This document shows, piece by piece, positions 1-43,900 of a stretch of DNA of 64,000 bases; positions within the stretch are counted from its first letter, which is position 1, and each line of letters opens with the position of its first letter. The notes below the pieces were generated by a model. The model ran no database searches, was not told where the DNA came from, and saw only the letters and a program-made list of their open reading frames with translations. The position numbers were made by a program, and so were the translations under genes. Source of the stretch: Russula earlei (Eukaryota; Basidiomycota; Agaricomycetes; Russulales; Russulaceae); contig JAGFNK010000007.1 of the NCBI GenBank assembly GCA_025769875.1, positions 186,001-250,000 of the forward strand, given 5' to 3'.

Positions 1-2568
1 CCACGGGCGCGAGCGTCACCCCGAGGATGGCATCGTGCAGGTTAGTGAACCGTTTGGGGAGCGCGGTGCACAACGCGCGGGACCACGGCGGAAACTGGCG
101 CGCCTCGACGTCGTAGAGCTCGAGGGTGTTGTTGGCGAAGCCGAGAATGAGCAGCGAGGGCGAGCTCGGCGCGAAGGCGAGGGCGTGCGCGCGTTGCGGG
201 AAGGAGGGGAGGGTGGTGTGGTGCTGCACCGCGTCGAGGTTGAAGATGTGCGTGCGCATGTGATCGTCGGTCGTGGCGAGCCATTGCCCGTCGGGACTTG
301 TGGCCATCCGCGTGATCGTGGCTGGCACGGCCTCGGCGTGGGTTGTGTATCGGGGCTGGGGATCGACTTGGGCGCTTTTTGCGTCGGACGCGTCCGTTGC
401 GGGGTCGTCATCGTTGTTGTCTCGTCGTCTCCCAGTCAGGACGCGGCCTTCAATCATCAAGCCCCTGTTTCTGTGCTGATCGAACCTCCGAAGTACCCTC
501 GCGGAGGTTGGGTCAGACACGAGTTCGAGCACTAGGACGACGGCAGCTGTAGAGGCTACGACGAGTTTTGAAGAGTCGGGAGAAAAAGTCAGGGCGGAAG
601 CTCCGCAATGCGTCGGAGTATTAGGGTGGTCTCCTTGAAGCAGTGTTTGGAAGTTGCGCACTCGCTTGGGTTTCAAATCGCCTCCAGAAGACTTTGCAAT
701 GTGAATAATTGACTTGTAACACCATGTGGAAAACGACACGTACATCTGTTTGCAGCCAGAAAAGCTTTACTTCGAAGGTGTCGGAGACAGCGAGCCAGTG
801 TCCGTCATCTGATATTGCACTAGCTACAAGATTCGTTTTCACACGCAGACTCATCTCGAGAACTTTATTCCAGCCAGGGGCTTCCCCTGGCATTGCAAAT
901 GGTGATTCTTCCTCAAGCACAGGTTTCTCTGGAAGACGCCAGACCGCCAGGCTAGTGTCGCCGGTACTCAAGACAAGCCGTGCCCTCTTGGCTAGATGTA
1001 GGCCAACCGTCCCGTGTGCACCGGAAGTATAGGCAATTCTTCTGTGGTAAGCGTCCTCGAATGTGGCAATTACGCTCGTCATCAGAGGGTTAAAGATATG
1101 TGCGGTGGAGTTTTGAGGGAGAGCAGCCGGTGCCACGACGATAGACATATCCAGTCCACCGGAGACAAGGAGAGGAGCAACATTGGTCGGAAAGGGCAGC
1201 TGGTGAGATGAAGGGAAAGGGGCATACGGCGGCCATATAGACAAGCCGCGCACGTCATGGGAATGCATCCGCTTCGATGCTGTTCGTACCCAATTAGCGG
1301 GGTATGGTAAAGTCGAATTACCTTTTGACGACGAGGACTCGATCCGGGAGAATTGCGTCACTTTCTGGTCGATTCCAGAGGTATACACTGAGGTCCCGTC
1401 CTACACAGAATGAGACAACGAATATACGCAGGATATGCCAAAATTGCATACAGATCCGATCGCCAGGCAGAGCACGTCTGCGCCATGGGCCTCGAAGCTT
1501 TGCAGTTGGGTGCATGTCTGCGAATCCCAAAACTTGACCATGCCGAGAGAATCACCAGAGATAATGACCCCATCGCTGAGCGGTATGAGCAGCGATCTCA
1601 GGTGACGAGCAAATGACTACGCACTCACCCGAGAACGGCAACCGTCCAAACAAGTGTTCTCTCCCCCCTGATCTTATCCGTTCCCATCCTATTGAGCACT
1701 CTCCCAGAAGAGACGTCCCACTTCCTCAAGCTGCTGTCTGAGCACCCTGCTACAATCCAAGAATCTTGCCACTCATCCTCGTCTTCATCGCTACTGTCAC
1801 CGTCCTCACCGCCGTTCAAGGTGCGTCCTCCCTTCCACCGAGGCAATGGTGGTCCCCAAGCGAGAGATAAAATGCGGCTCTTTGAACGGTCGAGACGGCG
1901 AAGATGTTGAAGAGTGTCATATTCCAAGGATAGAAGGTGTATTGAACCATCCTCACAGCCCATTGCGAGGATAGTCGAAGCGGGGTTGGCTGCGATGGAC
2001 CAAATTGAGCCACCATTGGAGAGCAATGATCGCTAAACAGAGCGATCATTAAGAGAGAACGCGAGGATGGCATTGTCAACATACTCGTATAGTCCCGTTG
2101 ATCATATCCCACTCGGTCAATTGGCTACCTCCACCGGTGGTAAATAAGCGAAGGTCTGCGAGGGAGGGAATATCATCTTTAGGCAACTCGTCCGGATATT
2201 TGAGAGTAATCGCAAGGGAATCGACTTTGGATGGGTTTACGCCTGAAAGTGTCTGAAAGATCATTGGTCTAGTATAACGCCCCAGAAGTGAACGACTGGA
2301 CGCGCACTTTCCTCACCACCCAAGCTTGAGGTGCCTCGACGGACTCGGTTGAACCAGTCCACTCAGAGATCTCAACGTTACCATTTGCATGGCCGACGAT
2401 TAAAGGGCCAAACTTTGGTATGCCATCCACCGCAACAGCCTTCTTTTTGCCCTTGATGGAAGGTAGGGGTAATGGCGGAAACGCGAGAGCCGTGATGGAA
2501 GAGGGGGTAAAATCCACGAAGCGACATCTGTGAACGGACAAAGTCGTCCTTTCTCCCATAGATTCCAC
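1..2568 (-). CDS. UTP4: UTP4/cirhin-like U3 snoRNP WD40 protein (3' end off the window)
   Basis: WD40-repeat subunit of the t-UTP/UtpA part of the small-subunit processome, needed in the nucleolus for early 35S pre-rRNA transcription and processing. The first exon starts at 2568 and holds the characteristic N-terminus (VHRCRFVDFTPSSITALAF). Further exons carry SKVDSLAITLKYPDELP, then GSIWSIAANPASTILAMGCEDG (about 2026-1960), an acidic insert, and SLRKWDVSSGRVLNRMGTDK followed by VYTSGIDQKVTQF near 1385. These are in the order expected for Utp4. Intron 1 runs from a GTGCGC donor near 2307 to a TTTCAG acceptor near 2257. The C-terminal part runs off the left edge, so the gene is incomplete. Family assignment is from remembered motif similarity; exon borders toward position 1 are approximate. 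Confidence 0.85.
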
Positions 2569-2730
2569 AGAGAGCGTTTAAAATTCTGCCTCTCGCGTGG
2601 TGGTCGCCTTTGGTTTGACGCGAGCGACAGTTTTCTGCTCGCACGTGGACCTGACCCGCTTCCTCCGTGATCGAACTCTGATTCACAACACTCACCACCC
2701 GACGACAACACCTGCCTGTCCCTCAAAATC

Positions 2731-3125
2731 ATGTCAATGTTTGGGCGAGGTCCTAGTCAGCCATCTGGTGCGGTCAACCCAGAACGTATGGAGATGGCGA
2801 TACAAGAGTCCGTTTTTATCCCTTCACGGTTCCACGGCCTCTGATCCTCTCGCCGCCCAGGTTGGACATGGTCACCGACATTTTCAACCGTCTTGTCTCG
2901 TGAGTTCTTTTCCTGGACCGAACCCCCACTTCATACCTTCATTTTAGGACATGCCATGCCAAGTGTATCAGCACACGGTATACAGAGGGTGACCTCAACA
3001 AGGGCGAGAGCGTTTGCATCGACCGATGCGTGGCCAAATTTTTTGAAGCAAACAAGAAGGTCGGGGAGCGGTTACAGAGCGTTGGCGCAAACGCAAGTGC
3101 AGCTACAGGTGCATTTGGTTTGTAG
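2731..3125 (+). CDS. TIM10: Mitochondrial intermembrane-space chaperone Tim10
   Basis: Small TIM chaperone that, with Tim9, escorts hydrophobic precursors across the mitochondrial intermembrane space to the TIM22 complex. Three exons, 2731-2807, 2861-2899 and 2948-3125, joined by introns 2808-2860 (GTCCGT..CCCAG) and 2900-2947 (GTGAGT..TTTAG). The spliced protein is about 97 residues and contains the twin CX3C motif: CHAKC and CIDRC, separated by [15 protein letters not shown], which is near-invariant in Tim10. Start ATG at 2731 gives MSMFGRG. It lies divergent from UTP4 (start 2568), with about 160 bp between the two start codons, and converges on the zinc-binding gene downstream. Confidence 0.93.
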
Positions 3126-3302
3126 AGACACTGCTACAAGCCACACCGCATATGTTCCATTGTGCTTTCGATATGGAAGACGCAGATTCACCTCTCCACT
3201 TAGGATGCCACACAATCTGGCGAGAACAGTATATACATCCATACGACCCAAATATCCCACCTATTGATATTATTTGACTTGCCAGGGTCCCTAGAAAATC
3301 GG

Positions 3303-3708
3303 TTATTTCGAGACATCCCGGAAGCACTCTGCCATTGTCTTGGAGTGTCTATTCTGCGAATGCTCCTCGAGGCTGGAATGATCCGTGAAGGTGTGAATGC
3401 GTCATGCCGAGTGAAAGGACAATACAACGTACGCGGGCGCCCTGGTTGTCAGGAGCTGTGGCAGGATTACGCCTTAGAGCTAACACGGGAGAAAGAAAAA
3501 GTTTAGAAGAAGCTCACGAAAGGCTGTTTACAAACTGAGCAGACGATGTTTTTTGCCTGTTCATTCGTTTTGGACTGGCTCTTCGCAACCTTTGGCGCGC
3601 ACTTGTCAACCTTGCGCTTGCGTTTGTCTGCGGCTTTAGCGCCCTGGATGTCGTCAGCGCCGCCTCGCGACGCGTAGAAAACTGGAAATAATGTCTTACG
3701 TTGGTCAT
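3303..3708 (-). CDS. Small zinc-binding protein (At2g23090/zf-met2-like)
   Basis: Four exons encode a 75-residue protein: 3708-3700, 3643-3518, 3455-3433 and 3372-3303, all with GT..AG introns. The spliced product starts MTNGAKAADKRKRK, a basic stretch, then AKSQSKTNEQAKNIVCSVCK, then QPFLLTTRAPALEEHSQNRH and ends SKTMAECFRDVSK. The C-x2-C followed by H-x4-H spacing and the KSQ-K-NE-AK-I-C core match the small eukaryotic zinc-binding family typified by Arabidopsis At2g23090. The exact role of that family is poorly known. The tiny first exon (MTN) means automatic annotation could easily miss or mis-start the gene. The 3' end is 177 bp from the TIM10 stop, in convergent orientation. Confidence 0.85.
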
Positions 3709-4061
3709 CGCACGACAGTGTACAAACCAAAGAGCACAATAAAACCGGAAGAGCAAAGAACAACAACACTGTGCTCGGGATCGGCCCGGCCCGGCGTGGT
3801 CCCGTTGTCGCCGAGCCGAGAATAGAAAAAATGCCTTGGGGGGCTCCTTGAACCGCGACCACCACCAGGTCCGGATTTTCCCACGGCAAAGCCGGGGCAA
3901 GGATAGGCAGTGAGGATGACAGTGAGCTCTGCAAGGCCAGAGCCACCTGTCCGAGCCTTCGTAAAACTACAACCCCCTCACCAACTAAACCACCATCCAC
4001 CAGGCTGACTGGCCAAACCAATACATAACACAATCACTATGTATGCTAGCAGTAATCTGCA
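3709..4061. other. Upstream region of the zinc-binding gene; possible LINE 5' junction
   Basis: No supported coding sequence. It should include the promoter of the minus-strand zinc-binding gene. Base composition changes to C/A-rich near 4040, where the retrotransposon-derived sequence appears to begin. No clear target-site duplication was found. Confidence 0.4.
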
Positions 4062-5333
4062 ATGAGAACTCCCACATTAACACACAACCCATACCATACA
4101 ACTACCCAGCTCCCCAACAACGAACAAGCAACACCAGCACCCTCCATGAACACCCTACCCAACTCCCACCTCCCTCCCCTCCAACTGTCACTACCAATAC
4201 TATGCCACCACAACCACGTGGAGACCACACATGACCCAAACCCCCCACCACCAGCCCGCCTTTCACCACCCGAAACAACAGTCCTTTGTCCCCAAGAACA
4301 TAAACCAACCATTAGCAACTATTTCGCAGAAAATAGCGTACCTAGGCATCAAAGAACACCAACCCCCTATCCCACGCCTGTCTACCACAAAAACCTACAA
4401 ACTGCGAGATTAGCCATAGCAGACTTTAACGACGCCCTTGAAACTGATAACACAATATGGATGGGAATACAAAAAAGACCATCCGTACCTGTGTCCAACA
4501 ATTCCTGTATAAATCAATGCACTCAACACACAGAATAGGCCCCCAATGGAGACACATACCAAACTACGAGGATCATGAATTCTGCTCCACATGCAACGTC
4601 CCTGAATCAATGGATCACATACTTATCTACTGTGAAGCCATGCCCATAACACCATCTGGTCCCTAGCGAAAGAGACCTGGCCACATGCACCACATCTATG
4701 GCCCGACATCAATTTAGGCACCATACTAGGCTGTGGATGCCTCACCTTCCCTAACCAAGATGTCGAACAACACCATGACCAAAACCGCCATAGACGCATC
4801 CCAAAAGGAGCCACTCGCCTCCTCCAAATATTAATTTCAGAGGCTGCTCACCTAATCTGGGTCATAAGGTGCGAACGAGTTATCCAAGACCGCACTCACC
4901 AAGAAAGTGAAACCCATACAAGGTGGTTTTGTGCCATCAACACGAGACTCACCAATGACAAAATAATCGCAACACTAATCAAACGAGATAAAAGGGCTTT
5001 CAAGTTAGTGAGGGACACCTGGGAACCTGTTTTTAGGAAAACAATGGACCTCCCAAATGATTGGATCTTTAACCGTGAGGTTTTAGTGGGTAGGAGGCTA
5101 TGGTAAGTTCGGCCACACGTATTTCTGAGTCCCACACTGCCCCCATACCGGCAACCCCTGGGGGGCGTGCATAAATGCATTTCACCCTCACATCCGGTCT
5201 CCGCACTGGCTACAGCGCGTAAGATAGGGCTGAATTAATATTCTCCTGCTATCACACCCTTATTGAGGTAGCCTGTACCCGTAACTACCTAATAAAGCGC
5301 TATCCAAAAAAAAAAAAAAAAAAAAAAAAAAAA
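4062..5333 (+). mobile_element. 5'-truncated LINE (Tad1-like) ORF2 3' end, 3' UTR and poly(A)
   Basis: The extreme 3' part of a non-LTR retrotransposon. Several frames, broken by small indels, read the familiar fungal LINE ORF2 C-terminus: TQKIAYLGIK near 4328, a zinc-knuckle-like CSTCNVPESMDHILIYCE near 4588-4632, GTILGCGCLTFPN near 4718, then GATRLLQILISEAAHLIWVIRCERVIQD near 4808-4890 and LPNDWIFNREVLVGRRLW ending near 5105. About 200 bp of 3' UTR follow, with an AATAAA at 5291-5296 and an uninterrupted run of 28 A at 5306-5333. The poly(A) is the hallmark of target-primed reverse transcription. The copy is dead (no RT or endonuclease). It sits between two host genes and touches no identifiable exon. 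Confidence 0.85.
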
Positions 5334-5356
5334 GCCTTGACGTCGAGTCGGCCAAC

Positions 5357-5780
5357 ATGGGACAGGAACGGGAAACATATTGGGACAACGAAGCCACCCT
5401 GCGACTCAATTCCGAGCCGGATATCAAGCTGGCAAGGCAATGTCTCCCATCCGAAGTTGGACAGATGCTTTATGAGGTGATGTCAGCCCTCTTGTACAAT
5501 CAATGGATTGGGAGGGTTTTGTTGTATTGGTTGGTTGAAGAATCTCATACAGTTGTTGGAGAGATGGAGTCTCCCATCTAGCGACGAGATCCTCAAAGTA
5601 CTTGCTTACTTGGTGAGAGCGGGAAGGATTATATAGAGGAAATTGAGGGCGGACGTGTGCACAGAGAATTGGCCAGAGTGCAGGCGAAGGAACATGTATT
5701 TGGGGTAAGCACACTGGCAGAGCCCAGCACCCTATACCCAAACGCTGCAATGCCGCACCACGACCCAACCACCTACATTT
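5357..5780 (+). CDS. Possible hypothetical gene or gene fragment
   Basis: Not recognised. An ATG at 5357 opens MGQERETYWDNEATLRLNSE and continues to a possible GT donor in GAG|GTGATG near 5478. A CAG acceptor near 5550 leads into LLERWSLPSSDEILKVLAYL, which reads like real coding sequence. A further open stretch (DYIEEIEGGRVHRELARVQA) follows in a third frame to about 5780. No splice combination that I could find joins all three cleanly, so it may be a decayed gene or need an unusual intron. It starts only 23 bp after the LINE poly(A), so the LINE may have landed in its promoter or removed its 5' exons. Confidence 0.3.
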
Positions 5781-28399: not shown

Positions 28400-29362
28400 T
28401 GTCAAGACTCACTGTTGAACTATCCAGTTCAAGAGCGAGGGATAAGCTCGAAGACGAGTCGATAGACGTCCAAGACGGCGTGGGCAAGAAGTAAAGTCCA
28501 GAGTAGTAACAAATACCAGAGAGGCACTGTTACCGTGAGAGTAGAGCAATCACGCAGAGAGGAGGCCAGGATAGTCACAAGGGGACGGTCCTTAAAGGAG
28601 TATCCCAGGGATGGAGAGTGCTGTAAACAAATGGACAGTCTGAGGACTGTCCGTTACTTTATTGAGCGCTTATATACTACAGGGGAACTGCTAAATAGAG
28701 AACAAGTCATAACCTTGTTATCAAGCACAATCAAAAGATGAGTAAGAAGTCAGAGTGCGCTTACTGAGCATGCTCAGTCATGCTCAGTAATCTGCTGAGT
28801 AAGAAGGCTTCTCCTGATGAGTAAGAGCTTTCATTGTCCACGTGTTTTACTGTTCTAGTGCACGTGCAAGCCCCTGATTCATTTTCTGTTAGTTAGTTTA
28901 GGGCCGGTCATTTGAGGACTTGTAGTTTGGTCAGGGAATAGTGTCATCTTATAAGGCCCTTATATAGTCCTATTAGGGTCCTTAGAATCGACCCCAATAC
29001 TTCTACTAAGGTCCTTAGTATTGCCTTATAGGTCGTTCTATAGTTATTAGAGTCAGTCTAATAACGTGTTGTAGGGTCTTTGATACTAGGTTATTACCTA
29101 TTGTAGGGCACCTAGAGTCGTCCTAAAGGGTCCCTAGGAGGGCCCTAATACTGTCCTTTATTGCTAGAAGGGTTGCCATTAAGTGGGGCTTGCTGTATGT
29201 TGATTGTGCCAAGAATCGCTCATGCAACAATGCGCGTGCGATATTGTGGACACCTCTACTCACCCCTTTTGCCCGTGTGAACAGGGTGACACCATAGAGG
29301 CTGGGTTTCCTCCTATAAGGAAGGGTCCTTCAAGGGCCCTCTCTGGAGAATGGTTCATGACA
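28400..29362 (-). repeat. Solo LTR, family A, in Copia-1
   Basis: 963 bp, TGTCAAGACTC..GGTTCATGACA, perfect TSD TACAT at 28395-28399 and 29363-29367. It splits the Copia-1 gag-pre-integrase sequence: LHNNLYI before and MAIQMAKPES after rejoin when the LTR is removed. Confidence 0.93.
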
Positions 29363-31361
29363 TACATCATGGCCATCCAAATGGCCAAACCTGAGTCAGC
29401 TCGCACAGTGACGCTAGACCAATTCCTCGTGGAAGGCAGCCCCAAAGTTGAAACTGCCCTCACCACACGCACAATGGCCTCTAAGGCTTCCCTCAATACA
29501 TGGCGCCAACACTTCACACATTCAGATACTGAAAATACAATGTGGATGCTAAAAGGGGAAACAGTTAGGAAACTCCCTGAGATATTAGATCCCTCCATCA
29601 AAGGGATGCAAACTTGGAGTGAAAACTTGAAGACACTGGAAATGCATACTGACATTGCATTAGACCAGGCATCCTCAGACACATGTGGGACATCACCCAC
29701 CAGCACACCCCAGCTTTCTGACTGGGCAAAACCTGAACCGTGGGAACATGCCGGTGGGCTGAAGCACAAATTGGAAGTGCCCCAGCACCACCAACCGCAC
29801 ACCGTGCACATTGAGCCCATGACTGGCCAACACTTGAAGACCCTCCGATTGGATGGAGGGGGTGAACACACCAGGCAAGAGGTGCAAACATCAAATGGAA
29901 TTGAGCACCAGACTACCCTGGGTATGCCACAACAAGCCAACGTCGCAGAACGCACAACCCAGACACCTCTTGATAGGGTCCGGGCAATGCATACAGATGT
30001 GAATCCATCAATGCATGCCTTGGACAACTTGATGCCCAAAGAGGCAAGGTGCAGGAACAATCCCAACCTCTCTTGGTCACATGTCCTCAGAACGCGCACA
30101 TCCGCGCACGCCCTGCGGAAGAGGCTCACCAAGTTGACCTGAAGGTCACTCGTGTGCACAGTCCTGGGCTACACAACTAAACAACAGGCACACAAGCCTG
30201 TCCATCTCACCACTCTCAGCATCCTTAAACCCTGCAACATCATATTCAATGAAGGGGGCCCCATATGGCACATCAAGCACACAATCCTTGAATACAACAT
30301 CACAGCTGAAAGTGCCAAAAATGGAGAAATGAAAGTGAAGTTGAGGGGGCAGAGAAGGCAAAACCGGCGGACAGCGTGGAACAGCCGCCACATGCAAAGC
30401 TGCAAGGCATCAGAGCAGACAGGGTTCTACCCACCCAGCCTGAAACAGGCAGACAATGTGGAGCAGGTGCCATGCACAAAACCGCAAGGCGTTGGAGCAG
30501 ACAGTGCTCTGCCCATTCAGCCTGAAACACCACATAGTCAGCCCACAGTTCACAAAGCAAAAAACTTATCTGCACAGTCCACTGCCGGACAACCAAAGTG
30601 CTCCACATGTGCCCCCATCCATAACATGGATGCTCAACATTCTGCCATCCCACATGAGCAACGAATGAAATGTACCAAGCAGGGAAAAGTGGTACATAAA
30701 AAGGTAGCCACAAACCCCAAGTCCTATGCCGGGGCAACAGCTCATGCAGATACTGCCGAATGGGAAAAGGCGCACAAAGTTGAGAAACGCATGTTCGAAA
30801 ACACCAGCATTCTCGAAAGTGTGCCGCACATGCAGAATGGAAATGCAGTGGGGATGCAAGTAGACCTTCCAAATGAAAAGGTCAAATCACAAAATTCGAA
30901 AATGCAAGGCCCATGTTATCACACAGGGACTCACCTAAGTTGAGGGCAACAACCCTGACAAAGTCATGCCATCAAAAGACTGGCACTCCCTTGCACCCTG
31001 GCCCTAGCTGCAGAATGAAGCCTAGAAGTCCATCACATGGACATTGAGTCCACCCACCTAAACAGAGACTTGATGGACAAGATCTTCACAGAAGCATGCC
31101 AAGGGAATTACCACCGATGCACACGCAAACAGGTGACCCAGTATGCCTGAGGTACGAGCGATCACCACCCAACCTTCCAGCATGACTCCAGCACCCAGCC
31201 AATCCTGGTCAGATATGTCGACCCTGACTGGACCAGCAAAGTCCACTTTGGACTTCATCTAAATGCTGACAGGTGGGGCCATAAACTGGAGCCGAAAGGA
31301 GCAAGCCCCAGTTGCACCCTTGAGTGCTGAGGTGGAGCACACCATGGATGCATGTGCTGCC
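29363..31361 (+). pseudogene. Copia-1 integrase/RT/RNase H relic
   Basis: Highly decayed pol. The frame to 30,142 holds the integrase core remnant (GQHLKTLRLDGGGEHTRQEV, then NVAERTTQTPLDRVRAMH). The frame 30,152-30,943 is rich in Lys/Gln/Pro and does not resemble a normal Copia RT, so RT may be deleted or scrambled. RNase H motif residues reappear near 31,265-31,350. Confidence 0.6.
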
Positions 31362-32331
31362 TGTTGAAACTCACTGTTGAACAATCCAGTTCAAGAGCGA
31401 GGAAGGAGTTTAAAGACAAGTCAATAGACGTCCAAGACAGCATGAGCAAGGAGTAGGGTCCAAAGCAGTACCAAGTACCAGAGGGGTATGGTTACTGGTA
31501 GTATCGAGAAGTTACACAGGGAAGAGGCCAGAATAAACACAAGGGGACGGTCCTTAAAGGAGTATCCTAGGGGTAGAGAGTGCCGTAAACAAATGGACAG
31601 TCTGGAGACTGTCTGGTACTTTATTGGATGCTTATATACTACAAGAAAGCTACTAAATAAAGGATGCATTGTAACCTTGTTATCAATCACAATAGCTGGA
31701 TGAGTAAGGCACCCAGGGGTGCTTGGTAAGCATGCTCAGTCATGCTTAGTAACCTGCTGAGTAAGGAGGCCTTCAGTGATGAGTAATAGTTCTTGGAGTT
31801 CATGTGATCATTGTGTGAACTTCAAGGTCCGTTTGCTGTACTTCCAGCTTACTAATACAGTTAGTAAACCTCGTCAACTCTTCTCTGGAGACCAGGGCAC
31901 ATGGGTCTCCTTTTTAGGAGTCTTCAGGTTGAGTTTTCATTTCATGTGTTGAGTGGTTATATGGGTTGAACCACTTTACTGCAGTAAAGACTGGGTAGCT
32001 CAATGGCTATGAGCATCTGGTCTGGTCTATTATAGGTCTTGGGTTCAATCCTGGCAGTGGGCAATCTTCTGAGGTGACTTGGAGCTGAACTTGGCACTGT
32101 TGTCTTGTAAGTGTACAATGCTTGTTGTTTAATCCCCTTTTAACAGAAGGTTGTAGCTGACTTCTGTAACAAGGGTCTTGGGTTCAATCCTGTGTAATGG
32201 ACTATTATGTGAGATATAACTGGAGTCAATCTTGGCACTGTTGTCTTGCTTGTCAATAGTTGTATGTGTTCCTCATTAAGTCCCTTTGAAGTCCCTTTAA
32301 TAGAATGGACTCTTTGAGAGCGTTCACAACA
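31362..32331 (-). repeat. Solo LTR, family B, in Copia-1
   Basis: 970 bp, TGTTGAAACTCACTG..GCGTTCACAACA, perfect TSD CTGCC (31357-31361, 32332-32336). It shares roughly 400 bp (inferred R-U5 and core promoter) with family A, but the other half is unrelated. That half holds two tRNA-like segments, one near 31,986-32,060 (TAGCTCAATGGCTATGAGC .. GGTTCAATCC). Confidence 0.9.
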
Positions 32332-32406
32332 CTGCCAAAGAAGCTGCAAGGCTGAGGCAATTACTCACCAGATTGGGTCAAGACACTCATCTCCTCATGA
32401 TCTCCT

Positions 32407-32587
32407 CTAGTCTCGGTTCCAGACATTCTATCTCGGACGGGAGAATCCGAGGGAGGTTGAATCGGAGTGCGAAAAATAGATGAAACTGGTCGAGATAGAA
32501 CGTCTGGTGACTTTCGTATGGGTGGGTGTGGGTAACTGATCATGTGACCTTGTCGCGTACTATCTACTGTGGTATATCGACGCGTAC
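32407..32587 (+). repeat. Left 181-bp terminal inverted repeat
   Basis: Inverse of 37750-37930 with about three mismatches (near 32,423, near 32,510 and near 32,583). Its inner edge lies 25 bp before the DUF6589 start codon, so it probably supplies that gene's promoter. Confidence 0.9.
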
Positions 32588-32612
32588 CTGTGCATACAGC
32601 CTGCCGCTTGCA

Positions 32613-35304
32613 ATGTCCACTGTCCCTTCTGATGGTGACACTTCAGATTCTGACCCCAAAGCGCATGAGGATGCTGCACCTGAACGAGCCCCAAAATCTG
32701 ACCCGCACATCCGACAAACTGACCGATGTCGATAATTTCTGGAGGATACTGGAGACATTTCTGACCGCGTGCTACAGGTTCTAATTCCTGGATGGCTCTA
32801 GCAACTGTTTCTAATCTGTGTGCTACAGGTTCTTGATCTGATGGATAAGCTACACCTCAATCTTCCTTTGTTCCTTTGGGCAATCAGTTGGAATGTCCCA
32901 AAGCTCACCTCTGATAACCGTGTCCGCTTTGCAAGGACAGCACTAATGGTTAGCGATGAGCTTCCAGGAATATTAACACACTGGAGTAGGCCTCCTCGTT
33001 CTCATGGTCAAGGGATACGTACAAATGCTGCTAGGAAAGCACTGAATGCCTGGGCTCTGGAAACTATCTGCGAGACCGTGGATGATGAACTGTCTATACT
33101 CAAGCCGACAATGTCCCTCCCGCAACAAGATCTATCTGAAGATGTTCTGCTTTCCATCAGCTGGAAAGAAATGATACCAGAGGTAAAATCCAAAGCACCA
33201 ATATTGTGGAAACTTTTCCGGTATACATTGTACACGCTGAGGCAACAACAGCGAAATCAACTGAGGGACCCCGACATGGTGCAGTTCAATGACGTCTGCT
33301 TCTGGTGCTTCTAACACTTCTCATTGTCTAGGCGACCCTTACCATGATATCAATGGCATCGTTCTCACGTTCACACCATCGTTGCAAGCTTCCCAAACTA
33401 TTAACAGTATACTTCAAGAGTTGTGGGCTGGCGACAAAAGCATTTGACACTCTGCATGCTCTCGGGATTACAATGAGTCAAAAGTGGGCTTACCGTGCCA
33501 TCAAGACTCTCTCTGAAAAGGTCCATGTCATGCTATTGGACGACATCCAGCACTATCCCTGGTTTGGCTGTCACGACAACATCAACCTGCCATTCAAGGT
33601 CTACGAGCAGCGACTTGGAAACCAATCTCACTTCGACAGTGGAACTGCGGCAACTATCTTGATTATCAAGGATCCCAATGCCGTTCAGCCAAACAATCGG
33701 GCATTCCAGGAACGGAGAGCATCAGGCGCTGCCAACCCAATCACGTACAAGGACATTGTCAAACTTGAATGTGACGCCAGCCCCCGCCTTAAGGCTTATG
33801 CCGTTCACCAAGTTCTCATGTATTTGACTGCTGCACCGGGTTTCAGCTTCGAAACATATGCTGGCAACAAGCACCCGTTCTTCAATTCCCTGCCTCTCGC
33901 CGAGGAATTACCCATCGGTCTGGAACACGTAACCTGCCAGTACATGCTCAATACTGTGCACATCGAGGAAGCGTCCTATGAAGGAAATGACTGTGTACTC
34001 AGCGAATGGTGGCATCAACTCAAACTCGATACAGCTGACAAGCAGAAGCAGACCGGCGAGGAGAAAGTGATTGTCTGGGTTGGTGACCAACTTACAGTTT
34101 CTCAACTTCGAGGTCTGCAAAAGTTTCGGTGCAACGACCTCAATTCATTTGAACGCCTTGTATTCCTCAAGGAAGTTTTTGGGTGGTTCCATGCTCAAAT
34201 TGCTTTTGAACACTCACTCCACTCTCAATATTATGGCACTCAGCTGGGCTTTGGACTCGTTCACGCGTTTGATCTTCTCAAGCGTAAAGGCCTTCATTCA
34301 CCTATGGTAGAGGGAACATTTCACCACCACCTGAAAGAAGGCCTCCTCCACATATCAGAGGCTCGCTTTCGTGACCTCTGGAGCATGGTTGGCAAAGTCG
34401 ACAAACTGGCTGACCTGCGCTGTCATACTCCGGAACAACTTCGTGCTCTAGCAATCAAGATTGTGGACGATCATGCATCGACTGCTGCACTACAAAAAAT
34501 GGCTGCAAACAAATTGAGGAAAGACGATCTATTATACCAGTCAACACAGATGGCGCGTGATCTCTTGGACTACGTGAACCTTGATGCAGCAATCAAAGGT
34601 GGTAATGTAGGATGTTTACAGGACCTTTTGCCACGTTTACTCTTCCGATTCATTGGTGGGAAGAACAAGAACTATGCAATTGAGATGCTTGAGTTATTGC
34701 AAGGTTTACACCGGGAATGGCCTCCCGACCTCAAGTGAGCACGCTTTCTCATGTTCTGATGCGCAGCCTGAGCATGCTGTGCAGAGCTTATATTATCAAA
34801 TATTGCTGGTTAGCGAACATGACAGGAAGGCGGGATGGATTTCTCCCAATCGACCTGCTACAAGAACACAATGTCCGGGACATCAAGGTCAGTTCCAGTT
34901 CATATGTGATCCGAGTTGCGACTCATCTGTGCATATAATATGAATAGCACACTTTTTCCGCGAAGGGTCCTTATGCAGACTGGGACTACATTGGTGAAAC
35001 ATCTGCGTCGATCCCTTGTCAGCGAAAAGTCAAGGATCATGTTGAGAGTGACCTCAATCATTTCCTCCGTGGAAAATCACATTCATCACCTGAAAAGGAA
35101 GAAGATATAACGCGTTTATGCATGTCATACAGAGCATCAAATATTCACAGCAACCAACCCGGACGACGACTTGACTCAAAGGATAAGGTCTTGGATACGA
35201 TTTTAATTGGTGCGGAAAGTGGCAAGTTGTTAAAAACAATGAACAAATGGGTTGCAAGTAGAGTCTCAGAGTGGTCGCGCGACGAGGACTGGAAAGATTA
35301 TTGA
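32613..35304 (+). CDS. DUF6589 protein of the TIR element
   Basis: Basidiomycete-specific domain of unknown function. ATG 32613 opens an acidic leader (MSTVPSDGDTSDSDPKAHED). VLDLMDKLHLNLPLFLWAIS and RFARTALMVSDELPGILTHW follow from about 32,826. The main exon begins near 33,337 (SFSRSHHRCKLPKLLTVYF) and contains GCHDNINLPFKVYEQRLGNQ, VWVGDQLTVSQLRGLQKFR, GWFHAQIAFEHSLH, FHHHLKEGLLHISEARFRDL and LLFRFIGGKNKNYAIEMLEL. C-terminal exons read FLPIDLLQEHNVRDIK and GPYADWDYIGETSASIPCQR, stop at 35302-35304. A TAA at about 32,728 between the leader and the domain must be spliced out, or else the true start is downstream. Otherwise the gene looks intact. The Asp residues in HDN (33575) and GDQ (34085) and a Glu in HLKEG (34337) are candidate metal ligands (inference). 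Confidence 0.8.
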
Positions 35305-35340
35305 AAGCATGTAATGATTTTTAACCATGTGAACATGTTT

Positions 35341-37731
35341 CTAACTACTGGGAGGATGATATGGATTAAAAGAGAGAGGGGGATATCCTGGTACTGGATA
35401 TGCTGCAGCATATTGCACAGGATGAGGGTAATATTGAATAGAATAGGTTGTCGGCTGAGGTGCAGTTTGACGACTGGGACTCAGAGCTGGATATACCTGG
35501 CGGAGCGCCGGATGAGATGATGAAGCCACCCTACGTTGTGCTGTCGACGCCCGGGCTTTTGCAAGACGCTCTTCATCGCGAATAGATTTCCTTTCTGCCG
35601 AAACTTTTGATCGTTTGGCTTTGTTCTCCGCTTTCTTTTGCTCATTCTCTTTGCACCACGATCGGTCAATTGGCTCCAGAAGTTTGAGGACAGCTTCACC
35701 ATATTCATCAGCCCAGATCCACTCCGGTATCCCCTCCTTGATGTCGCAAAGTGTCCGGATTTGTGTGCGAGTGGCAATTTTTGTAAGGATGGGGTCTGGC
35801 AACAAGACGTTCGGGCCCCAAATGCAGTCCTTATAACCAGCTTGCCAAGTTTTCTGTCGCCAGTTCATGAGTGCATTTCGACATGCCTCCAAACGCTCCT
35901 TCCGGCGAGCACCTGGATGGCGGGCTCGTTTGGTGGCTTGTAGGTCGGTGGCGCCAGTTGCATGGCCATCGTCACCGCTCTCTTCGGCCTGTTGTGCCAG
36001 CCCATTGGTTGCTGGAGCAGCTAGGACCTCACGAGAGCGGATGTGGTCATAGAGCATCATAAGGTTGGCCTCCGCTGGTGTCAATTCAACATGGCCATTG
36101 GCGACCTTCTTGAGCACGCAAAGGTCGCAACACGGGACAATTAAGTCTAAAAATCATAAGGTATTATAGAATTTATACGAGGGAGGACTCACCAGTCGTA
36201 TGTAGTGGGTTGTCAAAGTATGCATCTGAAACGTCACGACGACACTCGGTCGCCTCAATCCATTTTCGCATCGCCTCCTCAACCTTCTTCTGGTATGTGG
36301 GATCAGCTGGCACTGTATCAGATTCTGCGTCTTCATTATTCTCCTCATCTTTGTCTTTGTCATCTGGATCCTCAGGTCCCACAACACCCCTCGACTTTCA
36401 TAACTTGTACACCGAAGGTTCAACCAAAAGGATGACGATGGCAGGCTCTCCGGATCTCCCGGCACAGCCAAGGCGCTGTGTCCAGACAGAAAGCGTAGGC
36501 GGGACCATGAACTGGATAACACGGGGAACATCTTGGATATCCATCCCCTAGAGTGAAAGCAGTAAATGTCAGTGGGTGGCCTTTAAAGCTAAAAGGATTA
36601 CCTACCATACCAGCTATCTCAGTCGCACAGAGGATGTCCACCTTTCCATCCCAGAAATCATTCATGACCTTGCGTTTCGCACGCCTAGTTTGACCTGCAT
36701 GCAAAAAATCGACTCGAGACCGCATTTCTTCAGGAATGAGACCACGAAGATGCATATGTCCCTTATAGGCAAGATCGCGCGTGTTAAAATAGATGATTGT
36801 CCGTATTAATAGCTTTGCACCGGGAGCGTTGGCCTCATTGATGGCAAAGTTTAACGCATCGAGGTCGTTGGCTGCTCCGCGCATCCGACAGATGATGGGA
36901 GTGATGTTTGGTCGATCATTTCCGAGATTGACAGTGAAAGTTTGGGATTCAGAGAGGCACAGTTTCAGCCGAACGTCATTGAGGATGTGAGGTGGCATCG
37001 TTGCTGACGTCGCCAAGATAGGAACAGAGTCAGGAACAAATGACCGCAGCCTCCCGAGTTCAGCATATTTCTTCCGAAACAGATCCCCCCATTGCGAAAT
37101 GCAATGGGCCTCATCAACTACAAATGCAAAAATGTTCCGAGTGAACTCTGGGGTGCGCATGAGTTTTGAAAACGTTGGATGCTCAAGGCACATTTCTGGC
37201 GATGTTAAAAGGACCCGATGTTTACGTTCCTTTATGTCCTGTACAATAAGAATCATGTGTGAAAGAAGAGTTATTGTCATGTACCTTGTGAAGTTGTTCG
37301 TTATAAACATCACCATTGACAGCAGTTGCTGTGAGGCCGAGTTTGTGGAATCTTTCAGCCTTAGAGAAGGTAAACAACGTGAACACATCTCCGTCAATCA
37401 AAACACTTACTTGCTCAGCCTCCAATTCGTTGAGGGGAGAAATTACCACTACCATGTTGTCCTTGGCTTCGTCAAGAAGAAGGGGCATCCCGAATGGCAT
37501 GGTCTTTCCAGAACCAGTTCCAGCAATCACTACACAGTCTAATCCGAGCAGGAGAGCTTCCGTAACGTCTACCTGCCAGGAGTAAGGGGGCTTTCCACCA
37601 AACACAGCACGAAATTTGTTTTCAATAGACTGTCGAGTTGTGGTATAGTTGTAATGACAGGTTTTCATAGCAGATTCACGAGCACAGATGAGAGCATCTG
37701 GAGGAGATATGGGATGGTCCAAGTCCAACAT
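35341..37731 (-). CDS. RecQ-like ATP-dependent DNA helicase of the TIR element
   Basis: Superfamily 2 helicase. The start is ATG 37731 (MLDLDHPISPPDALICARES) or 37755, which lies just inside the right TIR edge. Motif I is AGTGSGKT near 37,501-37,524. Other motifs are SPLNELEAEQ, LLTSPEMCLEH and DEAHCISQWG (motif II near 37,090-37,117, RecQ-like DEAH plus CISQWG), then ATSATMPPHI (motif III), RSRVDFLHAGQTRR, ILCATEIAGMG (V) and a motif VI region (VIQFMVPPTLSVWTQRLGCA, then GRSGEPA). The last exon (36117-35341) is a charged tail with NEQKKAENKAKRSKVSAERK and a Pro/Tyr-rich end, stop at 35341-35343. No RQC or HRDC domain is evident. At least four introns. The gene looks intact. Confidence 0.8.
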
Positions 37732-37749
37732 GACCCTATGAGTAGAAAT

Positions 37750-37930
37750 GTACACGTCGATATACCACAGTAGATAGTACGCGACAAGGTCACATGATCA
37801 GTTACCCACACCCACCCATACGAAAGTCACCAGACATTCTATCTCGACCAGTTTCATCTATTTTTCGCACTCCGATTCAACCTCCCTCGGATTCTCCCGT
37901 CCGAGATAGAACGTCTGGAACCGAGACTAG
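37750..37930 (-). repeat. Right 181-bp terminal inverted repeat
   Basis: Inverse of 32407-32587. Its inner edge is 18 bp upstream of the helicase ATG at 37731, mirroring the arrangement at the left end. Confidence 0.9.
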
Positions 37931-39903
37931 ATCTCCTCACATTGACAACCAGTCGACCATTGCCATTGCCAGGAACCTCGAGTTCCATGACCACACCAAA
38001 TGCGGTGAGGTGCAACACCACTTCTTGCAGCAAAGAGTCAACTTGCAGGGGATCAATCTTACTTACACTCCATCAGAAGGGGAAATATCTGGTGTATTGA
38101 CAAAAGGTCCCAGCCGTGAGAAGTACAAACGTCTTTGCGATGGAGATGGGAGGGAATGTGCACCACTTGGGCTGAGGGGGCATGTTGGATGTGCAGCTGC
38201 TAAGTGCCATGCAAATGGACAATCTGGACCGTACATGTAAATAATTAGAATAATTTAGTTATTGCGTTCGTTTCCTCAGTCTTTTACACACAAGACTGAG
38301 CTATCATCCCTATAGCTTCAACATTACCAACCAAGAGTTCTTGAATCTTGAACTTGAACTTGGATATTGGGATTTTCCAGGAGTGACAGAAGTGACAGGT
38401 GTGATGCAAGTGATATGATGTATATAATAAAAATTTTCTGTTGTGATTTGTGTATTTGCATACATGGGGTTACACATGATGTGTCAGCATCAAACTTGGA
38501 GTTGAGCTCCAGAGTTGAGCTCAATGACCTGAGTGCTTGCAGCCCCACTTTCACCAGAGCTGCACATATAAATTTTGCACAAGAAGGTGCACCCACACAT
38601 TGGTGACACATCTGTTGCTTTGATAACATGCTTGCCATACCCCACTTGGAAGGATTGGAAGGAAGGAGGTAAAAAAATATATTTTACATATCACATGTAA
38701 CCCCACACATGAAGGAAAATCACACTGAAAAATAACTCATATTTGAAATAGACTCATATTAGTTTATTATGTCACTTACATCACACCTGTCATTCCTGTC
38801 ACTCTTGGAAAATCCCAAAATCCAAGTTCAAGTTCAAGATTCAAGAATTCTTGGTTGGTAAAAGGGGCCTCAGTCTTGTGAAGGAAAGACTGAGGGAAAA
38901 AACAAATGACAAGTATTCAAATATTAACATGTATGGTCTGGCTTTGTCTGTACACATGCCACTAGGTGGCTGCACATCCAACATGCCCCCTCAGCGCTGG
39001 TGGAGTGTGTTCACTCCCATTTCCTTTGTGAAATGCTCATGTTTCTCCCTGCTGAGTCCCTTTGTCAAGACATCAGTGACCTGATCCTCAGTTGGAGTGT
39101 ATGCAAGAATGATCTCTCGCATGTTGACCTTTCAGCACAGGAAGTGGTGTCACACCTCAATATGCTTGGTGTGATCATGGAACTCTGGGTTCTTGGTGAT
39201 GGCTATGGCAGATTGATTATTGATGTGGAGTGTGGAGGGCCTTGGCCCAGGTCAGTGAGTGACTGTCTCAGCCATATGGCTTCTTTTGCCACATGTGTGG
39301 CCATGATGTACTCCACCTCCATGCTTGAAAGGGCCACTGACATTTGTTTCCTAGAGCTCCAGCTTATGGCCCCTTCTGCCAACATGAAGACAAAACCAGA
39401 GGTCAACTTCCTGTCATTCATGTCACTGGCCCAGTCCTTGTCAACTGGGTATTGTGTCTGTGTTGGAAAATGAGGCAGTGGTTGCTTGTTCCCCAGATAT
39501 ACTGGATTGCATGCTCAAGTGCATGATGGTGCTCATTACCTTGGCAGGCATGTTGTCCAAGTGTGGCAACAGTGTACATGAGGTCAGGTTGTGTTTCCAG
39601 CATGAGGTACATTACTGCACCAATCATGCATTGATAGGACTTGATGTCCACCTTGGGTGAGTGCGCCTTTAATAGGTGTTTGTTTGCAAGGGTTGGGGTG
39701 CTGATGGGTTTGGTACATGCTTTCTCAAAGCACTCCAAGATCTCCTCAATGTATTTTTCTTGGGAGAGCATGATCCAGCCTTCCTGGCAATCATGTGTGA
39801 TATGGATGCCTAGGATCCATGTGATGTTTCCTAGGTCCATCATCTCATAGTGTTTTTTCAGTTCTTTTTTGTCTGACTCAATTACAGTTAGGCTTTCAGA
39901 TGC

Positions 39904-40871
39904 TGTCATGAACATTCTCAAAGAGTCCATTCTATTAGAGGGACTTTAATGGGACTTAAACAAGGAACATATATGACTATTAACAAGCAAGACAACAGTG
40001 CCAAGATTGACACCAGTTATATCTCACATAATAGTCCATTACACAGGATTGAACCCAAGACCCTTAGTACAGAAGCTGGCTACAGCCTTCTGTTGAAAGG
40101 GGACTAAGCAACAAGCATTATACACTTACAAGATGATGGTGCCAAGTTTGGCTCCAAGTCACCTCATAAGATAGCCCACTGCCAGGATTGAACCCAGGAC
40201 CTCTAACCAACAGAACCAAGCACTCTCAGCCACTGAGCTACTTGGTCTTTACTACAGTAAAGTGGTTCAACCCTTATAACCACTCAACAAGAAATGAAAA
40301 CTTGACCCAGAGACTCCCAAAAGGGAAATTCACATGCCTGGACCTTGGGAGAAGAGTCAGCAAGATTTACTAACCATATTAGTAAATCAAAAGTGCAGCA
40401 AATGAACCATGTGCTCCGCATGAGCACTACACAGTGATCACATGGGCTTCAAAGACCATTACTCATCACTGAAGACCTCCTTACTCAGCAGGTTACTAAG
40501 CATGACTGAGCATGCGTACTGAGCACCCCCTGGTGTCTTACTCATCCAGCTATTGTGCTTGATAACAAGGTTTTGACTTGTTCCTTATTTAGTAGTATAT
40601 AAGCACTCAAGAAAGTATTGGACAGTCTCCAGACTGTCCATTTGATTTGCGGCACTCTATCCTCCAGGGGTACTCCTTCAGGACCACCCCTTCTTGCTCC
40701 ACTGGCTTCCTCTCTGCATAACTTCTCTGTACTACTGGTAACCATACTGCTTTGGTATTTGTTACTGCTCTGGACCCTCCTACTTGCCCATGCCATCTTA
40801 GACATCTACTGACTTGTCTCTGAGCTTTCCCCTCACTCTTGAACTGGATTGTTCAACAGTGAGTCTTGACA
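39904..40871 (+). repeat. Solo LTR, family B, in Copia-2
   Basis: 968 bp, TGTCATGAACATTC..GAGTCTTGACA, perfect TSD GATGC (39899-39903, 40872-40876). It carries TATATAAG near 40,597. The minus strand of 40,180-40,250 contains a well-formed tRNA-like pair of boxes: TAGCTCAGTGGCTGAGAG and GGTTCAATCC. Confidence 0.92.
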
Positions 40872-40921
40872 GATGCCATAGTGATGTCATCAACATAGAG
40901 AGCTATAAATGATAAGTTCCT

Positions 40922-43900
40922 GGGGGTTTTTCAGATGAAGACTATGGGAACCCTAGAAATGGCCAAATTATTCTTACGACATGCCTTCCCTTGGACTGGG
41001 GTCCCTTCCAAAATCATCTCCAATTGTGACTCTCGTTTTACCTCTGACCTATTCAAAGAAGTCTCTAGGATCCTGGGGATTAACCAGAATCTAAGTACCA
41101 CCTATCACCCTCAAACCGATGGACAATCTGAGAGGACCAATCAAACTCTAGAGATGTACCTTGGCATCTACACAGGAGAAAAACAAGAAGAATGGGTACA
41201 CTGGCTCCCCATAGCTCAATACCACTTTAACGCTCATAAATCCACAACCACCAAACAAACCCCCTACGAATTGCTCATTGGCTTCAACCCACAAGGGCTT
41301 AGCACCCAACTAAAATTGAAGTTCCCAGGGATTCAAGAATGACTCCAGGCCCTGAAGGACATGCGGGAATCGGCTCAAGAAGCAATGAAAAGGGCACAGA
41401 CAAGCTGGGTAAAAGAAACTAAATTCAAAGGGTTTGAAGAAGGACAAAAGGTCTGGTTGGAGGGAACTAACCTAAAAACCCCCCATCAGTTTCAGAAGTT
41501 CTGCCCCAAACGGTTCGGACCTTTTGTCATCACCAAAAACATTTCCCATGTTGTCTACCAACTTTGCCTTCCCCCCCAATGGAGTATCCATGACGTGTTT
41601 CATGCCTCCCTTCTATCTCCAGTCACGGAAACAGCTGAACATGGACCGAATTTCCCTGAACCACCACCTGACCTTCTCTCAGGAGAATATGAAGTTGAAA
41701 AAATCACTGCTCAACATACCCACAGGGGTCGCCTCCAGTACAGAGTCCAATGGAAAGGGTACTCTGCAGCAGAAGACATGTGGGAACCCCTCTCAAATCT
41801 TAAGAACGCCCAAGACGCTATCACCATGTTTCACCTACAACGACCCACCAAACTCCGTACTATGACTACCACTAACTCTGATTCTACAGAATCCTATCAC
41901 TCAGACGAAAGCCTGGACAACCTGGAACATCAGTTTCAAGGACTTACAATACAACAACGTACCTTACTCCCCCGAGTTAATTCACGTAACCCTCCTTCCT
42001 ACTCAGTCAATGATCCTACTATCCCCAACTGTGGGCACACCATTTTTAATATAGCCGCCAGGGAACAACTTTTTTCTGGAATTCTCTCCCCTGGTGACTT
42101 CCGCGGCTTTCAACTCCTTATGATGGACCCCCATTTTTCAGAGTTTCATCTGTCCATATGAAGGGCAGTACTTACAGACTTAATATGGAATCACATTGTA
42201 CGGTCAGTGCCCATAAATACCCCCACTCCCTCCAAGTGGTCAGCTTGGCATCACAAACACGCTACCTCCACTTACAATACTCCCATGTTGTCCCCTGCTT
42301 CTAACTCGTCCCCTCTACCCATTCTCACCCCTTCCCCCACCATTAAACAAGAACCCCTCTCACCTGAAGTCATACGACATATCATCGACCAATGCACCTT
42401 CATCATCCCAGATGAAGCCGAACTTCAGGACCTCACTGCCACCCTCAATCCACTTGCCATTCACGAGGGAACCCCCCTCACCTACCCCAACTGAAGTGGA
42501 CCCTACTCACCCTGGCCCCCCCTGGTTTGTTTACAAACCATATACACACGTTCCCCCCTTTTACATTAATGTTCATGGACAGAAACGTCTATTACCATAC
42601 TTACGAGTCGCTTTATATAATGACGAACCTATGATCCTAGGAACTATGGGTCGAGGAGAACCCACTTACGGAGAAAAACTCCTTGCTCAACCTGTTGTCT
42701 CTGCCCCTCACCCTTCTGTCATTGCCTCTGAGCTTCGCCTCCTAATCGAGGACCACCCATTCCACTTTGATGTTGCTCAGGCTCTTGAAAATCTCCATGA
42801 CCCTGGTGCTCTTGCTGATGTCTACCATCTCTGTATCAGTTTGTTTCAACTGAAGGTTTTAGAGGGTAAACGTGTCTCCATCCAAGGAGCCCTGAATGTC
42901 CTTCAAGGGCAACTCGCTGCGCTGACCAACTCCATGAGATCCAATCTCACACCAAAGAGACCACCACCATCCATAGCCACCTTTGAGCCAACAACACTTC
43001 TGTCCAAGTCCGTCATCAACTTGATAACTTGATGACTGATGGAGGCCTCACCTGCGACACTGGACCATATTACTCACTAGCAGGGAGCTACGACAGAATC
43101 AAAGAGTCAAAAGAACTGCCCACTTCTCCAGCGCTCGCTCGTCCTCCTCTCTCTCTGACTCCCCCCCTTGAGTACCCTCCTTGCGTTATCGACCAGTCCC
43201 AGAATGATGCTCCCATGGGGTCACCCTCCCACTTCCCTCAAATGTTCTCTGACGATGCTAGCACCCCCAACACCCCTCTCACCCTTGCACATATGACTAA
43301 AGTGCAGCATCATCAACTTCAGAAGCAACAACACATTTGCAAACACTGTAATACCAAGGGGCACTGGAACAAGGACTGTAACAGACCTCACACCAACTGT
43401 AGCAGTCAAGTGGACTGTATCCTCAGGAGAACTCACCGAAGCTACAGAGGCTTCTGCCCCAGAGCAACAGGACCCCAGAGCACGTGGCCAGAAGTCAAAG
43501 GCAATGAACTCTGTGAGTCGGGCCCTGAGACTGATTAGTTCAGAGAACTAAGCATGAGGGGGGCATGATGTTGTGATCTACCCCCTTGTCGGTTCATCCA
43601 TGACCTCTTTTGTTATCTTTCTCTTTTGTCACCCTTGTCTCCTTGGTTACCGTCTCATCCCTTGATGCTGATGGTCCCTTATTGTTTCATCTGTTGTGTT
43701 TCACTTATTGTGTTTCACTTATTGTCAAGTTACTTTTGCTATTGGTTTACCTTTATCTATTGTTCTGCTTATGGTACTGTACAGCCTCACTACATACAGT
43801 ATTTAAGTGCCTGTAGAAGCTGGGGAATGCCCCAAGCTTAGCTTTGTCCCATTACTTGTCGCATCCCTTGCCCTGTATACTCTCTCAAATCACAACTTGC

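Follow-up and report, generated by a model that had tools for sequence, protein, structure and literature searches.

The 64,000-nucleotide stretch of Russula earlei DNA analyzed here (GenBank assembly GCA_025769875.1, contig JAGFNK010000007.1, positions 186,001 to 250,000 of the forward strand; hereafter "the window") carries at positions 32408-37929 a 5,522-bp transposon, which we read, with a probability of about 0.84, as a young, apparently heterozygous, full-length and gene-carrying cut-and-paste element of the AcademH kind. Its terminal inverted repeats (TIRs) start at TAG, it is flanked by a 9-bp target site duplication (TSD), and it holds two convergent genes, one on the plus strand encoding a DUF6589 (PF20231) protein and one on the minus strand encoding a RecQ-like helicase. 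The element is a new family within an already described kind, and its fresh point is the identity of DUF6589, which by predicted fold and residue pattern is very probably the transposase.

An inverted-repeat scan of the window found arms at 32406-32587 and 37750-37931 that were complementary at 98%, and the TIR pair proper is 180 bp long with three mismatches, starting TAGTCTCGG. An earlier note, made from the sequence alone, had proposed a 5.5-kb mobile element with two genes between near-identical 181-bp repeats and a 7-bp direct flank (ATCTCCT). The element, its near-identical ends and its two genes (the helicase with DEAD and Helicase_C domains by Pfam) are borne out; the TIRs are 180 bp rather than 181, and the 7-bp flank is the inner seven bases of the 9-mer GATCTCCTC, 9 bp being the length also in 14 of 17 copies (see below). 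The features of the element, in window coordinates, are as follows:

32399..32407, no strand: left TSD GATCTCCTC, 9 bp; present as a single copy in the empty allele (C714:10300-10308)
32408..32587, plus: left TIR, 180 bp, start TAGTCTCGG (inverted-repeat and TIR comparison)
32820..33281, plus: N-terminal coding part of the transposase gene, 5' of DUF6589, its start approximate (tblastn with P0028, P0044 and P0114)
33344..34735, plus: transposase main exon with most of PF20231/DUF6589, stop-free (Pfam, tblastn, translation)
33575-33577, plus: candidate catalytic D (HDN), conserved in the homologue alignment
34085-34087, plus: candidate catalytic D (GDQLT), conserved in the homologue alignment
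34181-34192, plus: GWFH with its invariant H (homologue alignment)
34783..34887, plus: transposase exon bearing the candidate catalytic E (QEHN, E at 34864-34866) (tblastn, alignment, translation)
~34960..35304, plus: transposase final exon, ending with the stop codon; splice position at its 5' side approximate (tblastn, translation)
35306..35495, no strand: junction of the convergent gene ends (element 2899-3088), ~89-91% identical in short nonautonomous copies
35341..~36135, minus: helicase C-terminal part, exon limits approximate (tblastn)
36206..36547, minus: helicase exon with motif VI QRLGCAGR (36455-36478) and in-frame TGA (36398-36400) (tblastn, translation)
36606..37241, minus: helicase exon with DEAH (37104-37115) and ATSAT (36999-37013) (Pfam, tblastn, translation)
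37285..37716, minus: helicase exon with Walker A GTGSGKT (37501-37521) (Pfam, tblastn, translation)
37750..37929, minus: right TIR, 180 bp, end CCGAGACTA (inverted-repeat and TIR comparison)
37930..37938, no strand: right TSD GATCTCCTC, 9 bp (compared with the empty allele)

The youth of the insertion, which the earlier note had supposed, is supported by an exact empty site on contig C714 of the assembly searched (66.6 Mb in 1,374 contigs). The sequence left of the element is identical to C714:10001-10299 (100%), that on its right is 98% identical to C714:10309-10630, and between the two matches lie nine bases, GATCTCCTC once. This clean single copy shows the site before insertion, which makes the insertion a recent and, as it appears, heterozygous one. 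C714 probably represents the second haplotype of the dikaryon; its pieces align across window 28566-42529 (28566-31968 at 98.4%, 31964-32407 at 100%, 37930-38300 at 98.1%, 38278-42529 at 98.6%). The target is a decayed stretch, labelled a Copia RNase H in the earlier note and putatively one by a motif, and its stop codons are present in the empty allele as well. The age is judged from the empty site rather than from TIR divergence, since TIRs need not be identical at the outset. Near window 31968, C714 has ~960 bp extra (L037, C714:8903-9864; 92% identical to window 28400-29362, inverted, with a 5-bp overlap of the flanks), which is a second polymorphic insertion nearby, and near window 38300 it carries ~110 bp extra. 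Immediately right of the element lie two nested inverted repeat pairs (38142-38222/38944-39024 at 75% and 38324-38419/38766-38861 at 92%).

Copies elsewhere in the genome with the same ends and TSDs of their own mark the element as a TIR DNA transposon. At least 41 TIR matches were found (40 of 51 candidates scored), and among the 17 paired copies, the window included, the TSD was 9 bp in 14 (12 exact, two with one mismatch) and 8 bp in three. In a control that paired left and right flanks of different copies, none of the 272 pairs agreed at ≥8 of 9 bases; with at least 41 TIR matches, and 14 of 17 flanks alike at that threshold, chance is excluded. The TSD count used 17 of 18 two-ended loci and omitted L018 (contig C971), the same insertion as L017 (contig C984); L030, L031, L033 and L034, without one recognized end, were also left out. 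L017 and L018 share their TSD on two contigs, with an additional 123-bp TIR piece on C971, and are probably two haplotypes.

Eleven of the 17 paired copies measure 1,559-1,573 bp. Such short copies typically retain element 1-481, ~2899-3088 and 5296-5522, i.e., both ends and the gene junction, around ~670 bp of other sequence, and the 12 copies of 1,472-1,573 bp are 93-99% identical to one another. Because they have the same ends and almost no coding exons, they must move in trans. About 400 bp in their middle (e.g., within L017:704-1374) is 75-79% identical to a separate multi-site repeat of ~880 bp, around which no convincing TIRs were seen at the five loci inspected; this middle part looks like captured or nested sequence.

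The plus-strand coding stretches resemble Agaricomycete proteins of 725-790 aa, and PF20231/DUF6589 matches within 33332-34738 (E = 6.5e-84), the domain tail falling in later exons. In public proteins, 425 DUF6589 homologues were found at E ≤ 0.001, and those of the 120 listed that have a named source come from Agaricomycetes; no relatives were found in IMG/VR and GTDB scans made with the DUF6589 alignment. The homologues share a conserved D, D and E, which lie in HDN, GDQLT and QEHN in that order. Structures were predicted from two alignments, which combined the window exon with 81 and with 67 of the 120 homologues listed. The proteins to which the models align best, at middling Z scores, are DDE transposases, with Hermes (hAT) and the Drosophila P element transposase as top matches; in the model a long all-helical stretch lies ahead of the E, a trait of the hAT/P/RAG group. 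DUF6589 is thus very probably an RNase-H-fold DDE transposase, as judged from predicted fold and D-D-E pattern, and the earlier suggestion that it mobilizes the element stands at that strength. Entries of IS481, Tc1 and piggyBac type were not among the 50 matches listed in either VIA search, which is no exclusion of those types. When the DUF6589 sequence profile was run against the PDB it gave just five matches, all of them weak (E = 0.33-0.79) and to ribonucleases or a microtubule protein, which are read as noise.

The Pfam scan covered six window frames and five homologues, and no transposase model matched the six frames or the two DUF6589 homologues scanned. hAT models likewise had no match in the frames or homologues scanned, Hermes nonetheless being a top fold match. 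The usual hAT TSD is 8 bp, with variants of 5-7 bp, whereas 9 bp prevails here; P elements usually have 8-bp TSDs, and neither hAT nor P elements are known to carry a helicase. Mutator-like elements (MULE/MuDR) have long TIRs and TSDs of about 9 bp, a likeness to the 180-bp TIRs and 9-bp TSDs of this element which could suggest that the true transposase is supplied by a MULE or some other element and that DUF6589 is an accessory gene. That DUF6589 itself has a predicted DDE-transposase fold with the acidic residues, and that no transposase model was matched in the frames and homologues above, makes such a supply very improbable; the MULE transposase domain PF10551 was also without a match in the window frames and homologues scanned, although profiles can miss remote relatives.

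The minus-strand gene has WRN, BLM and RECQ5 as its closest solved relatives by sequence among PDB matches, and it travels with DUF6589. In this genome DUF6589 matches two loci only, and the helicase exon matches the same two, each with a TIR. The second locus, on contig C392, is 93-96% identical to element 1093-5522 and collinear with it, and it closes with the right TIR of the element (89% over 173 bp); C392:6000-15857 showed no left end. Eight codons of this copy are stops in the compared stretches, and four insertions with 4-5-bp duplications interrupt it (C392:15857-31723; L031, L035, L036). One of these is of long-terminal-repeat type (9,537 bp, its direct end repeats of 491 bp being 89.6% identical), and the other three are of 520-828 bp. 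The 120 listed DUF6589 homologues and the 120 listed of 602 helicase homologues in public proteins have at least 13 contigs of identical base pair size in common, compared to 0 to 3 (mean 0.65) in 60 offset controls. Pairing by exact size shows the same contig, and closeness where contigs are short (those in common include contigs of 4,651, 5,576, 5,675, 5,893 and 6,520 bp), orientation and TIRs being outside its reach. Both genes lie on one contig in Tricholoma matsutake, Daedaleopsis nitida, Trametes maxima, Trametes polyzona and Fomitopsis serialis.

The earlier note described both genes as nearly intact; the DUF6589 main exon is stop-free, and in the helicase, in the reading used here, one in-frame TGA directly follows motif VI; an unrecognized intron around this TGA is possible. 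Motif VI itself reads QRLGCAGR in the window, compared to GRAGR in relatives P0173 and P0175. Both features would suit a helicase that is a captured passenger with no part in transposition, as would the nonautonomous copies, which move without a helicase in cis. Those copies could, however, be served in trans, the helicase and DUF6589 genes of several Agaricomycetes lie on common contigs, and the ratio of nonsynonymous to synonymous substitution (dN/dS) between the window and C392 copies is 0.37-0.63 over seven coding stretches. On balance we regard a mere passenger as unlikely.

Precise insertion with a 9-bp duplication and gene-less copies sharing the same ends with TSDs of their own are directly established. 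The predicted activities suggest a cycle in which transposase protomers would bind the TIRs, the DUF6589 transposase would excise the element, and its 3' ends would be joined to the target strands at positions 9 bp apart by DDE strand transfer, with gap filling by host repair yielding the TSD. Repair or replication would probably be aided by the RecQ-type helicase, which would open or clear either the ends or the strand-transfer intermediate.

As to its classification, the earlier note had proposed an undescribed superfamily, and this is not supported: the gene pair and the 9-bp TSD match AcademH as given in passages of citing papers, and fungal Academ elements with DEAD/RecQ domains were reported in 2019. 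A passage in PMC10045372 (citing Kojima 2020) gives TSDs of 9 or 10 bp for AcademH and of 3 or 4 bp for AcademX, a difference seemingly tied to helicase versus nuclease, and one in PMC10799480 (citing Kojima 2020) describes AcademH elements as having DEAD and Helicase_C domains and as occurring at low copy number in Basidiomycota, Ascomycota and Mucoromycota. The R. earlei element matches these excerpts in its TIRs, its 9-bp TSD, its DEAD/Helicase_C helicase gene inside the TIRs beside a predicted DDD/E transposase (middling Z, from a model) and its low copy number (two gene-carrying loci). According to an excerpt of PMC6416283 (2019), PF00270, recQ_fam and similar domains occur in most fungal Academ copies, which frequently carry host-gene annotations, and the PF00270 DEAD and recQ-type domains of the present helicase are of that sort; a word search of the same paper did not find DUF6589 named. 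Putative nonautonomous Academ elements are mentioned for Marasmius oreades in a passage of PMC8290104, and bivalve Academ consensus sequences average 5,565 bp (a passage of PMC10294476 that leaves the Academ lineage unstated), close to the 5,522 bp found here. The three copies with 8-bp TSDs differ in this from AcademH as so described.

AcademX was rejected, its TSDs being 3 or 4 bp against 9 bp here and its nuclease being replaced by a helicase. Kolobok elements target TTAA, and the variable 8-9-bp TSDs here led to rejection of KolobokH as well. KolobokH resembles the R. earlei element as a fungal DDD/E transposon with a RecQ helicase; according to an excerpt of PMC9587614, however, its helicase lies downstream of the transposase domain, whereas here it is on the opposite strand. 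That DDE transposons captured helicases more than once, KolobokH being a case, is in keeping with DUF6589 being a separate, unnamed RNase-H/DDE superfamily outside Academ that gained its RecQ helicase and 9-bp TSDs independently of AcademH. DUF6589 goes unmentioned in the literature searched (PF20231 occurred only in an unrelated physics paper), and Pfam labels the domain as of unknown function. Nevertheless, TIRs, a transposase with a RecQ-type helicase, TSDs of 9-10 bp and low copy number in Basidiomycota together make up the AcademH/fungal Academ set as excerpted, and a separate superfamily is decidedly improbable. Identity with a named superfamily is thus probable on traits, and the element very likely belongs to AcademH, a placement in which Academ transposases were compared by description only. 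Recognition of DUF6589 as a DDE transposase may be new to the literature searched, though perhaps familiar to Repbase curators; among the papers listed in a search on R. earlei, transposable elements and Academ, a weak test, none contained the species name.

In four copies the TIR is interrupted at one shared spot (~TIR position 96-109) by an A-tailed insert: L014:1649-9423 (C158), L019:1678-2880 (C609), L026:1685-3097 (C438) and L032:3324-4379 (C269). In three of the four, GAAAGTCACCAGA or GAAACTCACCAGA is repeated on both sides, and the 7.8-kb insert is a long interspersed nuclear element (LINE) with endonuclease, reverse transcriptase and RNase H domains. The 5' parts of the inserts are 84-86% identical and the 3' parts 97%; this disagreement of 5' parts where 3' parts agree hints at separate insertions. 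The TIR site lay beside none of 20 other LINE copies fetched, so the LINE is not strictly site-specific. The spot is an insertion hotspot, to which Xenopus Tx1L in Tx1D is comparable.

The element adds no new kind of mobile element, and its empty allele makes the window copy a clean recent insertion. More broadly, a Pfam family of unknown function is tied to the DDE transposase fold, so that transposon genes could be recognized behind many "hypothetical proteins" and some "RecQ helicases" that now pass for host genes in annotations.
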